Assembly: GCF_030813515.1 (NCBI RefSeq) | Contig: NZ_JAUSUK010000002.1 | Coordinates: 682,001 to 746,000, forward strand | Length of the DNA stretch: 64,000 nucleotides | Reading direction: 5' to 3' | Source: Rhodopseudomonas julia | Lineage (GTDB): Bacteria > Pseudomonadota > Alphaproteobacteria > Rhizobiales > Afifellaceae | In this document: one piece after another, positions 860 through 60,725 of the stretch | Numbering within the stretch: the first letter of the stretch is position 1 | How the letters are laid out: each line of letters starts with the position of its first letter | Made by a program: the position numbers and the translations under genes | Notes under the pieces: generated by a model | Told to the model about the DNA's origin: nothing | The model's database searches: none | What the model saw: only the letters and a program-made list of their open reading frames with translations

Positions 860-2421
860 TGGGGGACCCAACGGTAGAGCCAGGTTTCGCTGGCGGGCTC
901 GCCGTTTGCGGCGAGACGCACGCGGAATTCCGTCAACTGATCCTCCGGCTCAAAGAGGAACGTCGCTCTGACACCCCCGACAAGGGGGTTGGGCTGCAAC
1001 ACCTGTCCCTTGATGGTGCCGTGATTGGCAGAGACCTCCAACGACAGGCCGTCAAACGCCGGAAGAGTGCCCTCTTCGGGAATGAAATCGATGACATAAA
1101 GGTTGCTGGTGTCGTGAAAGTTCCGTCCGGCGCGGCTGTCGGCGGCATAAAGCGAGCCGGATGGAGCTTTCGGCCGGTCGGTCCAGCGCATGCGGTAGGC
1201 GAAGGAATAGGGCGCACCCGGGCTGACGTCGTAAGACGGACGCCAGAAGGTGACGATATTGTCGTGGATTTCCTTGTCGGTGGGGATTTCCAGAAGCTCC
1301 ACCTGACCGTTTGCCCAGGTGCCGATCGGCTCGATCCAGACGCTCGGGCGGCGCTCGTAGCGGGCTTCCAGATCCTGGAAATCCTGAAAGTCGCGCGCGC
1401 GCTGGACGAGACCGAAGCCGCGTGGGGCGGGATCCATAAAGGACGAGGATTGCAGCGTCGGATAGTTCGAGAGCGGCCGCCAGATCCACTCGTTGTTGCC
1501 AGTCAGCATCTGCAGGCCGTCGCTGTCATGGACCTGCGGGCGGTAATCGTTGAAGCCCGTGCGGTTGAGCGGTCCGAAGAGGAACATCGATGTGAGCGGC
1601 GCAAGGCCGACATGATGCAAGGGCTGGCGCGGGAAAAGCTCACCCGTCACCTCGATCACCGTGTCGCGGCCCGGACGCACGACAAAGCGATAGGCCCCCG
1701 TCGTCGACACGCTGTCGAGGAGCGCATAGATGTTCAGAACCTCTTCACCAGGCTCAGGCTTCTCGATCCAGAACGCGGTGAAACGGGGAAATTCTTCGCC
1801 TTCCGGATCGCCGGTCTTGAGGGCGAGGCCGCGCGCAGACAGCCCGTAATATTGCCCCTGGCCGACGGCGCGGAAGTAAGTCGCGCCCTGAAAGACCAGG
1901 AACTCGTCCCACACATTCGGGCTGTTGATCGGATTGTGGACGCGGAAACCGGAGAAGCCGATATCGACACCTGCGGGTGGCTGCGGCGCCTGACGGAAAT
2001 TGTACATCGACGGGTCGTAGGCGACCTGATGGGCCTCGCCGTTGTCGACGATGAAGATATTCACCCGCTCTTTGAAAAGCGCGCCGCGATGGAGGAAGTC
2101 CAGCTGGAAGGCGAGGCCTTCGTCGCGCCAGAGTCTGGCTTCCCGCCGGAATTCGATCTCGCGGAACTGCGCGTAGTTGAGATCGGCAAAGTCGGCCGGA
2201 AGGTCTTCTTCCGCCTCCTTGAAAGGGCGCTCGGCAAGAGCGCGAGCCTGAGACTTCAGGCCATCCCAAGAAAACGCGTTGTTGCTGGGGGGCGGCGCTG
2301 CGATTTCGGGCGCCGGATTTTCGGGTGTGTCTGAGGAAGCGCCCCGTTGGGCGAATGCGTTGCCGCTTGCGCTTGATGCCGCGGCCGCGAGAGAAGCAAC
2401 GAGAAAGGCCCGCCTGTCCAT
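856..2421 (-). CDS. opgG: Periplasmic glucan biosynthesis protein OpgG/OpgD family
   Basis: Periplasmic protein needed with OpgH to make osmoregulated periplasmic glucans. The N-terminus has a twin-arginine type signal (MDRRAFLVASLAAA) ending near an AFAQ cleavage site, and the rest matches the OpgG beta-sandwich family throughout, with motifs such as YDPSMYNFR, DEFLVFQGATYFRAVG and SNLYVIDF. A Tat signal is typical of OpgD in enterobacteria, so OpgD is an alternative name. I chose the ATG at 2421; a TTG two codons upstream (2427) is also possible. It is first in a two-gene operon with opgH and is divergent from ettA across 281 bp, where a dyad CATGCT/AGCATG (2505-2530) is the only clear symmetry. 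Confidence 0.93.
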   Translation of the reverse strand: MDRRAFLVASLAAAASSASGNAFAQRGASSDTPENPAPEIAAPPPSNNAFSWDGLKSQARALAERPFKEAEEDLPADFADLNYAQFREIEFRREARLWRDEGLAFQLDFLHRGALFKERVNIFIVDNGEAHQVAYDPSMYNFRQAPQPPAGVDIGFSGFRVHNPINSPNVWDEFLVFQGATYFRAVGQGQYYGLSARGLALKTGDPEGEEFPRFTAFWIEKPEPGEEVLNIYALLDSVSTTGAYRFVVRPGRDTVIEVTGELFPRQPLHHVGLAPLTSMFLFGPLNRTGFNDYRPQVHDSDGLQMLTGNNEWIWRPLSNYPTLQSSSFMDPAPRGFGLVQRARDFQDFQDLEARYERRPSVWIEPIGTWANGQVELLEIPTDKEIHDNIVTFWRPSYDVSPGAPYSFAYRMRWTDRPKAPSGSLYAADSRAGRNFHDTSNLYVIDFIPEEGTLPAFDGLSLEVSANHGTIKGQVLQPNPLVGGVRATFLFEPEDQLTEFRVRLAANGEPASETWLYRWVPQ

Positions 2422-2702
2422 ACTCAACTCATAATTATCGGAAAGGACGCGGGCCGAACGCCCGCGTTCCTAACGCGCCTCATAGCACTCGGTTGCCACG
2501 GAAACATGCTTTTTTTGGCGTTGCAGCATGGTTATGCGCGCGGTGAAAGGCTTCGAAATCGGGTCTGCAGCCGTTCGATAGGAAGAAGTTGTGGCAGAGA
2601 TGGGGCGCAAGCACGGGGCGTGCTGCCATTGCTCCCAGCCGCTGCCTCGCTTATGTGGGCTGAAATTCCCTCGCATCCCGAAGACAACGGAGATCGGCGA
2701 CC

Positions 2703-4361
2703 ATGGCGCGCCAGTTCATTTATCATATGTCCGGCCTGTCCAAGGCCTATTCCGGCGGCAAGAAGGTTTTGGACAACATCCACCTGTCCTTCTATCCGGA
2801 TGCCAAGATCGGCGTTCTCGGCCCGAACGGCTCGGGTAAGTCGAGCCTTCTGCGCATCATGGCCGGGATCGACAAAGAGTTCACCGGCGAAGCCTGGGCG
2901 GCCGACGGCGCACGCGTCGGCTATCTGCCGCAGGAGCCGCAGCTCAACCCCGCCAAAGACGTCAAGGGCAACGTGATGGAAGGGGTCGCCGCCAAGCAGG
3001 CGATTCTCGACCGCTACAACGAGCTCATGATGAACTATTCCGACGAGACGGCGGAAGAGGCGGCAAAGCTTCAAGATCAGATCGATAGCGCCAATCTTTG
3101 GGATCTCGATTCAAAGGTCGACATGGCCATGGAGGCGCTGCGCTGCCCGCCGGGCGAGGCTGACGTCAATGTCCTCTCAGGTGGCGAACGCCGCCGCGTG
3201 GCGCTGTGCAAGCTGCTTCTGGAAGAGCCCGACCTTCTCCTCCTCGACGAGCCGACGAACCATCTCGATGCGGAGACAGTGGCGTGGCTCGAAAAGCATC
3301 TGGAGCAGTATCCGGGCGCCGTCCTGATCGTCACCCACGATCGTTACTTCCTGGACAATGTCACGGGTTGGATCCTCGAGCTCGATCGCGGCCGCGGCAT
3401 TCCCTATGAGGGCAATTACACGGCCTATCTGGATTCCAAGTCGAAGCGCATGAAGCAGGAATCGCGCGAGGACGAGGCACGCCAGAAGGTCATCGCACGC
3501 GAGCGCGAATGGATGGGCCGCTCGCCGCAGGCGCGTCAGGCGAAGTCCAAGGCCCGCATCAAGGCTTATGACGAGCTTCTGAAAGCGAATCAGGAACGCA
3601 TGGCAAGCCGCGATGCGCAAATCGTTATTCCGCCGGGCCCGCGCCTCGGCGACGTCGCCATCGAGGCGGAGGGGCTGACGAAAGGCTTCGGCGATCAGCT
3701 GTTGATGGAGGACCTCTCCTTCAAGCTGCCGCCGGGCGGCATCGTCGGCGTCATCGGTCCGAACGGTGCCGGTAAGACGACGCTCTTCCGCATGCTGACG
3801 GGGCAGGAGACGCCAGATGCCGGCGAGATCCGTCTCGGCGACACGGCCATCCTCGGCTATGTCGATCAGAGCCGCGACGACATGGACCCGAATGCGAGCG
3901 TTTGGCAGGAGATTTCCGGCGGGGCGGAGGTGATCCAGCTCGGCAAGCGCGAGATGAATTCGCGTGCCTATGTCGGCGCCTTCAACTTCAAGGGCGGCGA
4001 TCAGCAGAAGCCGGTCGGCAAACTCTCCGGTGGTGAGCGCAACCGTGTGCATCTCGCGAAGATGCTGAAATCGGGCGCCAACATTCTGCTGCTCGACGAG
4101 CCGACCAACGATCTCGACACGGAGACGCTCGCGGCGCTCGAAGAGGCGCTCGAAGATTTCGCCGGCTGCGCCGTGGTCATCAGCCACGATCGCATGTTCC
4201 TCGACCGTCTCGCGACGCACATCCTCTCCTTCGAAGGCGACAGCCATGTCGAATGGTTCGAGGGCAACTTCGAGGCCTATGAAGAGGACAAGAAGCGGCG
4301 GCTCGGCACCGACGCTGTCGAGAACCCGCGGCGGATCAAATACAAGCCGCTGACGCGGTGA
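2703..4361 (+). CDS. ettA: Energy-dependent translational throttle protein EttA (ABC-F)
   Basis: Soluble ABC-F ATPase that binds the ribosomal E site and links translation to the ATP/ADP ratio. At 552 residues it has the usual EttA length. It has two ABC domains: the first with Walker A GPNGSGKS (residues 40-47), signature LSGGERRR (about 158-165) and Walker B LLLLDEPTNHLD; the second with GPNGAGKTT, LSGGERNR and ILLLDEPTNDLD. The charged linker between them (PtIM region, around EWMGRSPQARQAKSKAR) is typical of ABC-F proteins. There are no membrane segments, so it is not a transporter. It appears to be a single-gene transcript with GGAG 10 bases before the ATG and a terminator directly downstream. 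Confidence 0.96.
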   Translation: MARQFIYHMSGLSKAYSGGKKVLDNIHLSFYPDAKIGVLGPNGSGKSSLLRIMAGIDKEFTGEAWAADGARVGYLPQEPQLNPAKDVKGNVMEGVAAKQAILDRYNELMMNYSDETAEEAAKLQDQIDSANLWDLDSKVDMAMEALRCPPGEADVNVLSGGERRRVALCKLLLEEPDLLLLDEPTNHLDAETVAWLEKHLEQYPGAVLIVTHDRYFLDNVTGWILELDRGRGIPYEGNYTAYLDSKSKRMKQESREDEARQKVIAREREWMGRSPQARQAKSKARIKAYDELLKANQERMASRDAQIVIPPGPRLGDVAIEAEGLTKGFGDQLLMEDLSFKLPPGGIVGVIGPNGAGKTTLFRMLTGQETPDAGEIRLGDTAILGYVDQSRDDMDPNASVWQEISGGAEVIQLGKREMNSRAYVGAFNFKGGDQQKPVGKLSGGERNRVHLAKMLKSGANILLLDEPTNDLDTETLAALEEALEDFAGCAVVISHDRMFLDRLATHILSFEGDSHVEWFEGNFEAYEEDKKRRLGTDAVENPRRIKYKPLTR

Positions 4362-57557: not shown

Positions 57558-57815
57558 TCAGGCTGGCCGGCATGTCGGCTTTCTGTCGGGCACCTGACCG
57601 GGCCAATCGATGGGCATGAACAGAGCCGCCTTGAAGAGAAGCGCGTGAGGCTGCGATGGCGGTGGCTGGTCGCTCGACAGCATTTTCGCGGCCACCTTGT
57701 CGACCTCGGCCGGATTGATGCCGATATCGTTGAGAAGATCGGGCGACAGGCCCCGAAGCTCGTGCGCGGCGTTCCGCTTGCGGCGGGCCCGGAGTAGCTG
57801 CTGTATGAATCTCAT
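57558..57815 (-). CDS. DUF1127 small protein
   Basis: 85 residues. The DUF1127 motif covers about residues 5-45: RARRKRNAAHELRGLSPDLL followed by NDIGINPAEVDKVA. The C-terminal 40 residues (proline-rich, then a weakly hydrophobic part) are an extension beyond the usual short form. GGAGG stands six bases before the ATG. The start codon lies inside a dyad that is repeated next to the divergent LysR gene. DUF1127 proteins in rhizobia are linked to small-molecule and RNA metabolism, but no exact role can be given. Confidence 0.85.
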   Translation of the reverse strand: MRFIQQLLRARRKRNAAHELRGLSPDLLNDIGINPAEVDKVAAKMLSSDQPPPSQPHALLFKAALFMPIDWPGQVPDRKPTCRPA

Positions 57816-57819
57816 TCAT
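57805..57819. promoter_or_regulatory. Dyad ATGAAT-N3-ATTCAT over the DUF1127 start
   Basis: Perfect 6-bp arms; contains a T-N11-A LysR-type core and a GANTC site (57808-57812). A 14-base string is shared, in the opposite orientation, with the site at 57927. Confidence 0.6.
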
Positions 57820-57926
57820 TGCCTCCATGAACAGTGATCAGCCTTGCCTCCTGGCTATGCCGATCGAGTGAGGCTAAGGTAGCTGTGCTCGTGCGGTTAT
57901 TCGAACGCGCAGAGTGCAAGGCAGAT

Positions 57927-57940
57927 TGAATGAGATTCAT
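57927..57940. promoter_or_regulatory. Dyad TGAAT-N3-ATTCA before the LysR gene
   Basis: The string TGAATGAGATTCAT is identical to the one on the minus strand at 57805-57818. It forms a T-N11-A dyad (57927-57939), contains GATTC, and ends 11 bases before the LysR ATG. Confidence 0.6.
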
Positions 57941-57951
57941 GTGAGGGTGGC

Positions 57952-58878
57952 ATGGACAAGACGAAGCTCGCGGCGTTGCCGCCACTGCACGCTCTAAGAA
58001 GCTTCCATGCGGCCGCCCAATGTGGGCGCTTTCGCGACGCGGCGAGCGCCCTCGGACTGACGGAATCGGCCATCAGCCACCAGGTGCGTAAGCTGGAGGA
58101 CTATCTCGGGGTGCGGCTGTTCGAGCGGCGCGGCAATGCCGTGCGGCTGACGGCTGCGGGCGAGACCTATTTTGAGGGTATCGATCCGGCCTTCGCGGCT
58201 ATCCGCCGGGCAACCGAACGGCTTGCAGGGCCCGGTGGTCGGGTGACGCTGACTTTGCCGACCTCGCTCGTCACGATGTGGCTGATCCCGCGGCTGATGG
58301 AGCTCGAGGCGGCGCTTCCGGAGATCAAGCTGCAGCTCGCGCCGTCGAACCGCATCATCGATTTGAAGCGCGAGCAGATCGATCTCGCCTTGCGGCACGG
58401 CAAGGGAAGCTGGCCGGGCATTTCCTCGGTGCATCTCTTCAACGAAGAGACCTTTCCGATCTGTCGCGCCGGCCTTCTGCCGAAAAACCCCGATCCGCAG
58501 GAGGTGCTGCGATCGGTCCGCCTCATCGTCAATGCCTCTCACAAGGAAGAATGGGCGGAATGGGCGCAGGCGCGTCAGATCGAGCCGCCGCCGCTCGACA
58601 ATGCGATGGTTTTCGATGGCACCGAGCAGATCATCGAGGCGGTGGCCGGCGGCGTCGGGCTCGGCATCGGACGGCGGCCGATGATCGATCGCTGGATCGA
58701 TGACGGGCGGGTGGAGGCGCCTTTCGGCACGGCCGATGAAAGCGGCTTTGCCTATTATCTCGCCTGGCGTGAGGATGTCGAACTCAGCGTCCCAGCGCGT
58801 CAGGTGGCGCGCTGGTTCGTTGCTGCCTGCAAGGGCAAGAAGGCCGCTGAGGCGATGTTCGCGCCGGTCGCCGCTTAG
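57952..58878 (+). CDS. LysR-family regulator, GcvA-like
   Basis: 308 residues. The N-terminal helix-turn-helix is PPLHALRSFHAAAQCGRFRDAASALGLTESAISHQVRKLEDYLGVRLFERRG, typical of the GcvA branch, followed by the periplasmic-binding-like effector domain (VTLTLPTSLVTMWLIPRLME). It is divergent from the DUF1127 gene; twin dyads lie beside both starts, so it probably controls itself and that gene. In Brucella and Agrobacterium the LysR protein VtlR controls DUF1127 genes, a useful parallel, though homology to VtlR itself is not shown. Its stop overlaps that of the convergent aminopeptidase gene by 4 bp. Confidence 0.92.
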   Translation: MDKTKLAALPPLHALRSFHAAAQCGRFRDAASALGLTESAISHQVRKLEDYLGVRLFERRGNAVRLTAAGETYFEGIDPAFAAIRRATERLAGPGGRVTLTLPTSLVTMWLIPRLMELEAALPEIKLQLAPSNRIIDLKREQIDLALRHGKGSWPGISSVHLFNEETFPICRAGLLPKNPDPQEVLRSVRLIVNASHKEEWAEWAQARQIEPPPLDNAMVFDGTEQIIEAVAGGVGLGIGRRPMIDRWIDDGRVEAPFGTADESGFAYYLAWREDVELSVPARQVARWFVAACKGKKAAEAMFAPVAA

Positions 58879-60725
58879 CGGACGATCGGGCGGCAGGATT
58901 CCTCGAGGAACTTGCGCTCCGCGTCGGTGTAATGCGGCCAGAAGGAAAGGCTTGCTCGCACCCTTGCATGGTAAAGGTCGAGCCAGGCGATCTCCGCCGC
59001 CGTCAGAAGTGCCGGCGAGATCAGGCGGAGGTCGATCGGCGCGAACGAAATCGTCTCAAAAGAGAGCATCGGCCTGTCGCCGCCGACCGGGACTTTTGGC
59101 TCGCGCACCACGATCAGGTTTTCGATGCGGATGCCGAAATCGCCCGGGCGGTAATAGCCCGGCTCGTTGGAGACGATCATGCCCGGCTCCAGCGCCACAT
59201 GGCCGCTCTTGGCGATGCGCTGCGGGCCCTCATGGACGGCGAGGAAGGAGCCGATGCCGTGGCCGGTTCCGTGATCGAAGTCGAGACCGGCCTGCCACAG
59301 AGGGGTGCGTGCCAGGACGTCGAGCTGCGCGCCCGAGGTGTCCTTCGGGAAATTCGCCATGGCAAGCGCGATATGGCCCTTGAGGACGCGCGTGAAGCGG
59401 TCGCGATAGAGCGTCAGGCGATCACAAGTCGCTTCCTCGCCCACCAGCACGGTGCGGGTGATGTCGGTGGTGCCGTCGCGATATTGCGCACCGGAATCGA
59501 TGAGATAGAGCTCGCCGACTTGAAGCGTGCGGTTGCTCTTCTCGGTGACGCGGTAATGGTTCATCGCCGCGTTCGGTCCCGTCGAGGAGATGGAATCGAA
59601 CGACACATCTTCGAGCTTGGAGCCGTCGAGCTCGGCCGTTTCGGTGCGGATCTCTTCGAGCTTCTTCGCCGCGTCGATCTCGCTCACGCTGCCGGCCGGC
59701 TGAAGATCGAGCCAGGCGAGGAAGCGGGTGACGGCGACACCGTCGCGAATATGCGCGGCGCGGCTGCCGGCGATTTCAGCGGCGTTCTTGCGGGCCTTGG
59801 GAAGCGCGATCGGGTCGGAGGCTTCGACGATCTCGGCGCCGCCTTCCTCGACGAGAAGCGCGACGGCTTCAGCCGAGCCCGCCGCATCATAAAGGGCCTT
59901 TGTTCCCTTTCCGAGAGCGCGCAGAGCGTCGGCGAATTCGGCCGGCTCACGGAGGCCAGCGAGGTCCGCGAGCGCGTCACGCACCGCATTGGAGAGCTTG
60001 CGCCCGTCGATGAAAAGGTCCGGCGCCTTGTCCTGGTGGACGATCGCGAAGGAGAGCGCCAGCGGCGTGTGCGGAACGTCGCTGCCGCGAATGTTGAACA
60101 GCCACGCGATCGAGGAAGGATCAGTCAGGACGACCGCCTGTGCCCGGCGTTTGGCAAGCGCTTCCCTCTGCTCGGCGATTTTCTCCGCGGCGCTGCGTCC
60201 GGCGAGTTCGTCGGGGTGCAGACGGACGGCGCCCGTCGGCGTTTCGGGACGGTCGCTCCAGGCGAGATCGATCGGATTCTCCGAGAGGGCGACGAGTTCG
60301 GCGCCAGCATTTTCGAGCTTCGCCGCCATGGAGCGGCGCTGGCTCCTCGTCGTGAGCCAGGGATCGAAGCCGATGCGGTCGCCTTCCTTGATCTTTTCGA
60401 CGAGCCAGTCCGTCGGGCTCTTGTCGCCGATGAAGACGACCTCGAAGGCGTCCTTGTCGACCTGCGCGGCCGCCTGCACGGTGTAGCGGCCATCGACGAA
60501 GAGCGCGGCTTCGTCGGCAAGCACGATGGCGGTGCCGGCCGATCCGGTAAAGCCTGTCAGCCAGGAAAGCCGCTCGGCCGCGGGCGGAACATATTCGCTC
60601 TGGTGCTCGTCGGCCCGCGGAACGATGAAGCCCGCGAGTTTCTGCTCTTGGAGAGAGGTGCGCAGCGCGGCCAACCGTTCAGCCGAATGGGTGGCGTCGC
60701 TCTTGTCGTCATAGGTCTGAAACAT
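58875..60725 (-). CDS. Aminopeptidase P family (M24B) Xaa-Pro peptidase
   Basis: 616 residues, the long three-domain form. Two creatinase-like N-terminal domains (RLAALRTSLQEQKLAGFIVPR, ALFVDGRYTVQAA) precede a pita-bread catalytic domain with metal ligands in YLIDSGAQYRDGTTDITRTV (two Asp), DHGTGHGIGSFLAVHEGP (His) and SNEPGYYRPGDFGIRIEN (two Glu). It cleaves the first residue before proline. No signal peptide, so cytoplasmic. Confidence 0.95.
   Translation of the reverse strand: MFQTYDDKSDATHSAERLAALRTSLQEQKLAGFIVPRADEHQSEYVPPAAERLSWLTGFTGSAGTAIVLADEAALFVDGRYTVQAAAQVDKDAFEVVFIGDKSPTDWLVEKIKEGDRIGFDPWLTTRSQRRSMAAKLENAGAELVALSENPIDLAWSDRPETPTGAVRLHPDELAGRSAAEKIAEQREALAKRRAQAVVLTDPSSIAWLFNIRGSDVPHTPLALSFAIVHQDKAPDLFIDGRKLSNAVRDALADLAGLREPAEFADALRALGKGTKALYDAAGSAEAVALLVEEGGAEIVEASDPIALPKARKNAAEIAGSRAAHIRDGVAVTRFLAWLDLQPAGSVSEIDAAKKLEEIRTETAELDGSKLEDVSFDSISSTGPNAAMNHYRVTEKSNRTLQVGELYLIDSGAQYRDGTTDITRTVLVGEEATCDRLTLYRDRFTRVLKGHIALAMANFPKDTSGAQLDVLARTPLWQAGLDFDHGTGHGIGSFLAVHEGPQRIAKSGHVALEPGMIVSNEPGYYRPGDFGIRIENLIVVREPKVPVGGDRPMLSFETISFAPIDLRLISPALLTAAEIAWLDLYHARVRASLSFWPHYTDAERKFLEESCRPIVR

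Follow-up and report, generated by a model that had tools for sequence, protein, structure and literature searches.

The very large DUF1127 family consists of small proteins without settled function, and what has been described of their control comes from scattered systems. Parts of PMC7486931 describe the LysR-type regulator VtlR/LsrB as directly activating bab1_0914 and bab2_0512 in Brucella and atu1667 in Agrobacterium, place the A. tumefaciens vtlR gene next to trxB and the abcR genes and away from its small-protein target, and propose GCAT-N3-TG-N3-T as its box. Excerpts of PMC12595884 report three DUF1127 genes under VtlR regulation in B. melitensis. At the protein level, PMC12501420 describes binding of PhoR by short members of the DUF1127 family and cites Salmonella YjiS as a binder of SsrA. 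Within the partial texts covered by our literature search, no report of side-by-side LysR-DUF1127 pairing was found, although an earlier mention may exist. Among the titles listed in one literature search for the motif letters described below, none dealt with such a gene pair. Term searches of the retrieved text did not find 'LysR' in PMC11707872 and PMC12218461, and found DUF1127 in PMC11975290 in the reference list only.

The locus analysed here combines a DUF1127 gene with a divergently oriented LysR-type regulator gene (LTTR) in a 64 kb stretch of Rhodopseudomonas julia DNA, hereafter the window. The DUF1127 gene occupies 57558-57815 on the minus strand (85 aa, ATG at 57815, stop codon included), and its product starts with MRFIQQLLRARRKRNAAHELRGLSPDLLNDIGI and matches Pfam PF06568 at 32.2 bits, over the gathering cut-off of 23.3. 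The regulator gene lies at 57952-58878 on the plus strand (308 aa, stop codon included). Its product has the domain composition of an LTTR, with an N-terminal HTH_1 domain (74.8 bits) and a C-terminal LysR_substrate domain (115.9 bits), both over their cut-offs. We refer to it as GcvA-like, and not as GcvA, since its best NCBIfam match is GcvA (NF008352) at 228.3 bits, below the curated cut-off of 288. By sequence, its closest solved relative is 8y6u, titled glycine cleavage system transcriptional activator, and Afifella marina DSM 2698 carries the regulator at 93% identity. The gene next after the LysR gene (58875-60725) is M24 aminopeptidase-like.

The 14-mer TGAATGAGATTCAT occurs at 57927-57940 on the plus strand and, inverted, at 57805-57818 on the minus strand. 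Its symmetric core is the 13-mer TGAAT-N3-ATTCA, which forms a perfect dyad at both positions: site 1 (57806-57818) spans the DUF1127 start codon, and site 2 (57927-57939) stops 12 bp short of the LysR ATG at 57952, the 14-mer itself ending 11 bp before it. A T-N11-A site with inner symmetry is the signature of LTTRs, and such a site is thus present between regulator and divergent gene. Both dyads also contain a GANTC sequence. In these respects the sequence-only reading, which had placed two inverted copies over the DUF1127 start and 11 bp ahead of the LysR ATG and had described each as a symmetric T-N11-A site holding a GANTC, proved accurate.

The genome search for the 13-mer that this reading had proposed returned three exact sites in 3.79 Mb, namely sites 1 and 2 and a third inside a tRNA-Ala gene with anticodon GGC; 0.45 exact sites are expected from base composition, and the backwards control pattern had no exact site in the whole genome. 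The looser pattern TGA-N7-TCA occurs 11 times in the window, close to a shuffled mean of 10.03, yet three of these occurrences fall within the same 134 bp (57806, 57828 and 57927), where scaling of the shuffled mean gives approximately 0.02 per stretch. At up to three mismatches the 14-mer was not enriched over the window (3 found versus a shuffled mean of 3.2), so that it is the exact pair, together with where its members lie, that makes the finding significant. When one mismatch was allowed, the 13-mer had 29 sites in the genome (3 exact and 26 with one mismatch) compared to 2 for the backwards control, which makes a wider regulon possible; given the 26 one-mismatch sites, the sequence may not be private to the LysR/DUF1127 pair.

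LysR orthologues (E up to 1e-60) were found in 7 of 11 genomes of the family, and a divergent DUF1127 gene adjoins the orthologue in all seven. Site 1 is exact in four of them (G000, G002, G001 and G004), carries one mismatch in G003 and is lost in G007 and G010, while site 2 is exact in G000, G002, G001 and G003, carries one mismatch in G007 and G010 and is degenerate in G004 (3 mismatches). Missing conservation beside orthologous gene pairs, which the sequence-only reading had named as an outcome that would speak against it, was hence not observed: the gene pair is kept in 7/7 genomes, as is one dyad or more with no worse than a single mismatch, whereas both dyads at this standard are kept only in four of the seven genomes (G000, G001, G002 and G003). 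In the seven-genome alignment, mean arm conservation was 0.93 for site 2, 0.83 for site 1 and 0.81 for the middle element, compared to an average of 0.75 over 124 alignment windows; one alignment window only scored above the site 2 arms, and it overlaps site 2. Since site 1 overlaps the M-x-F-I codons, coding constraint could hold part of it. Site 2 keeps a distance of 108-113 bp from the DUF1127 ATG in each of the seven genomes but lies anywhere from 5 to 21 bp from the LysR ATG, a pattern that suggests a role of site 2 at the DUF1127 promoter.

The same alignment bears on two further proposals of the sequence-only reading. The first is a possible input from CcrM methylation, which would act on binding through the GANTC that each dyad holds. 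The window and G002 have GANTC in both dyads and G004 has it in site 1, but this amounts to 3/7 genomes for site 1 and 2/7 for site 2, so that the conserved GANTC within a regulator site that marks a CcrM-controlled promoter was not found. In A. marina the same spacer change, GAG to GAA, has occurred in both dyads and removes GANTC from both, leaving the dyads perfect. Within such a dyad, a G at the end of the spacer or a C at its beginning is enough to create a GANTC. We consequently regard an input from CcrM as quite improbable.

The second, offered there as an alternative, derives the LysR-side copy from duplication of the start of a DUF1127 gene. ATG AGA TTC AT can indeed be read in both copies; past the shared 15 bases, however, the flanks match at 5/39 and 10/39 positions, which is near chance. 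The frames that follow the LysR-side ATG vary when read by eye (MRFM-stop in G000 and G002, MKFM-stop in G001), and this ATG is in frame with LysR in G007 and out of frame in G010. Moreover, G007 and G010 retain the LysR-side copy while their DUF1127 start is without a dyad. A duplicated gene start is thus scarcely credible as the source of the second copy. The position of both copies near start codons would also suit dyads that act in RNA, as hairpins hiding a start codon or Shine-Dalgarno sequence. Folding of the two 51-nt leaders gave structures no better than those of shuffled sequences (z of 0.17 and -0.21), and the dyad hairpin was absent from both minimum-energy structures, which renders a role as RNA hairpins very improbable.

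Two further elements accompany the dyads. The weaker dyad TGA-N7-TCA at 57828-57840, whose TGA and TCA are kept in 7/7 genomes, is centred 22 bp inward of site 1, and a block of the form GCRYANRRYGC, conserved in the seven-genome alignment, lies at 57907-57917 with its centre 21 bp inward of site 2. The 4-bp arms of this block covary, reading GCGC/GCGC in G003 and G004 and GCAT/ATGC in G007 and G010, and its symmetry is imperfect in the other three genomes. A centre spacing of 21-22 bp would suit LTTR tetramers on paired half-operators, and either element could be the other half of such a tetramer site. A consensus promoter scan of 57780-57980 detected no sigma-70 promoter, and a terminator scan of the region likewise returned nothing. 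By eye, a candidate DUF1127 promoter can be read on the minus strand at 57877-57905, consisting of TTCGAA (57900-57905), a 17 bp spacer and CTACCT (57877-57882).

From this arrangement we infer LysR binding, the direction of regulation, the promoter positions and the role of the weaker dyads. The GcvA-like LTTR would recognise TGAAT-N3-ATTCA and, at site 2, would most likely switch the DUF1127 promoter. If DUF1127 transcription starts near 57870, a position judged by eye, site 2 would be centred near -63, and about -63 is the usual recognition position of LTTRs. Bound to site 2, just ahead of its own start codon, the regulator may also hold down its own production. Site 1, which spans the DUF1127 start and is lost in two genomes, could be a second operator that acts as a roadblock or aids the formation of a tetramer or loop.

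Occurrence of the dyad pair beyond this family was examined with a paired-dyad search relaxed by one base per arm. Among 397 genomes of the order it matched seven, four of which represent the same locus (G000, G001, G002 and G003). The other three genomes contributed five loci (L039 of G273, L041 of G387, and L040, L042 and L043 of G204), and none of these had a LysR or DUF1127 match with HMMs built in this analysis that recover both genes in 7/7 positives. L041 contains two tRNA-Ala genes. In L042, six TGAAC-N3-GTTCA dyads are clustered at 1456-1853. A GcvA-like LysR of 36% identity (L011, G040) has the same dyad upstream; the dyad is absent from its three closest orthologues (78-79% identity), and we take its presence to be due to chance.

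Pairing of DUF1127 genes with LysR genes recurs in the source genome and across the order. Of six DUF1127 matches in the source genome, four are divergent from a LysR gene (the window gene, C1:1440712, C1:1700712 and C2:439141), and the fifth, at C2:905500, adjoins a GntR/aminotransferase ORF of the MocR type. In the three source-genome pairs other than that of the window (L050, 1151-2329; L051, 2108-3481; L054, approximately 2142-3554), the LysRs are of different types, with best NCBIfam matches to GcvA, LrhA and YafC, all below the cut-offs.

The survey covered 63 Hyphomicrobiales genomes, 53 of which had a DUF1127 match. From 164 matches counted, 150 were examined and merged to 133 loci; the remaining 14 include the fourth LysR-paired gene of the source genome (C2:439141). 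A divergent LysR HTH was located at most 700 bp upstream in 52 of the 133 loci, a denominator that retains three loci with less than 500 bp of upstream sequence and no LysR match, and in 39 of 52 genomes. Two further loci, whose divergent LysR lies 728 and 769 bp away, were excluded from the 52, and one locus had a non-divergent LysR. The LysR HMM used was built in this analysis from 30 sequences, mostly GcvA-like. For comparison, 40 regions of 3.5 kb on survey-genome contigs, hand-picked away from DUF1127 matches and thus not random, contained two LysR genes, which implies a chance of approximately 0.005 per locus. Pairing was more frequent among weaker-scoring DUF1127 loci (45/88) than among the loci from the 50 best rows (7/45; Fisher p 6.5e-5). 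Beyond the order, 5 of 40 loci, hand-picked across the score range from 92 matches outside the source genome, were LysR-paired.

At 79 loci no divergent LysR lay within 800 bp, and an opposite-strand ORF could be scanned at 70 of them. The neighbours carried the MocR domains GntR (7) and Aminotran_1_2 (7), as well as Creatinase_N (7), Peptidase_M24 (5) and WYL (3), where the neighbour is the longest opposite-strand ORF and some are surely spurious. On a tree of 80 LysRs, the DUF1127 label changes 10 times, at least six of these changes being forced by the starred branches, in a tree whose bootstrap had not settled. Judged from these sequences, the LysR-DUF1127 pairs are of several origins.

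The window regulator falls in the GcvA-like part of the tree, and a second clade includes 35 paired regulators. The label LrhA-like for this clade reflects the best NCBIfam match of one member, at 144 bits versus a cut-off of 530. That the clade appears to consist of DUF1127-paired regulators throughout is partly an effect of sampling, because rows without DUF1127 come mainly from the GcvA-like search. From 37 intergenic regions, comprising the second clade and its two nearest paired rows, a box near ATTGATCNNTCCAACGAAT was obtained with a score of 559.2, compared to 287-306 in ten shuffles given the same number of restarts. Some four of these regions fit poorly or elsewhere: in L143 and L170 the best window is far from LysR, and the match is poor in L119 and L131. 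In a search for palindromic motifs, two further DUF1127-paired sets of the GcvA-like kind scored little or no better than shuffles (53.9 versus 45.9-52.3, and 39.3 versus 37.9-40.6).

A bare-DNA search with TTGATCNNTCCAACGAAT matched 39 of the 397 Hyphomicrobiales genomes, once each, and its backwards control matched none of them. Thirty of the 39 loci were read (L293-L322), and in all 30 LysR and DUF1127 genes lie divergently on either side of the box; the box had been derived in part from four of the genomes concerned (G058, G025, G067 and G020), and many loci come from close relatives. The 40 comparison regions contained no DUF1127 match. In 29 of the 30 loci, one being left out for a split domain match, the distance from the box to the DUF1127 domain had a standard deviation of 16 bp and that to the LysR HTH one of 51 bp. 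The tighter distance on the DUF1127 side indicates that the box is tied to that side. The second-clade box is separate support, at the level of sequence, for LysR-DUF1127 pairs carrying dedicated putative operators.

This bears on a further explanation of the window dyads, in which a different palindrome-binding regulator, not LysR, binds TGAAT-N3-ATTCA and controls the pair. Symmetric 13-mers fit many dimeric regulators; yet outside the tRNA gene the exact sites of the genome lie only beside the LysR gene, at least one site, exact or with one mismatch, persists in all seven examined genomes that keep the LysR orthologue, the T-N11-A form with inner symmetry is that of an LTTR site, and pairs of another clade carry a different box of their own. 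We therefore regard control by another regulator as unlikely. The dyads are very probably the LysR operators of a divergent LysR-DUF1127 module, and the intergenic region would serve as its shared control region, in which LysR recognises the dyads; we assign this explanation as a whole a probability of roughly 0.78. That one LysR protein governs both genes, as had been suggested from the sequence alone, is likewise favoured by the placement of the sites, their conservation and the recurrence of the pairing.

With about two in five examined DUF1127 loci of the order having a divergent LysR, each such protein gains a candidate regulator and a testable operator, and the recurring pairing suggests a dedicated switch, encoded alongside, for many of these poorly understood proteins. 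More tentatively, and with the odds rather against it, many DUF1127 proteins, mainly the weaker-scoring ones, could be dedicated partners of a back-to-back regulator: the regulator would turn on a small arginine-rich protein, which would act back on the regulator or on the sensed pathway, as has been described for members of the family binding PhoR or SsrA. Such a module would have formed repeatedly with LysR, in line with the at least six label changes, also with MocR-type regulators and perhaps with WYL proteins.

Compared to the known systems, the locus shares with VtlR/LsrB a LysR-type regulator and, as a putative target, a gene of the DUF1127 type. Unlike A. tumefaciens vtlR, the window LysR gene lies beside ligA and an M24 peptidase gene, not trxB, and the VtlR box GCAT-N3-TG-N3-T, with 7 matches in the window, has none between 57780 and 57960. 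The E. coli yjiR-yjiS pair likewise has a DUF1127 gene divergent from a regulator gene, but YjiR is of the MocR type, in which a regulator is fused to an aminotransferase, and is not a LysR. The pattern described here unites these scattered reports on VtlR-DUF1127 and yjiR-yjiS. Classical divergent LTTR regions such as those of GcvA and AmpR resemble this locus in their divergent target, in a T-N11-A site near the LysR start and in weaker dyads about two helical turns off; here, in contrast, the putative target belongs to the DUF1127 family, its start codon lies under one of the dyads and the regulator scores below the NCBI cut-off for GcvA. For a single locus, then, the arrangement is classical, and the new part is the recurrence of the module together with the separate box of the second clade.
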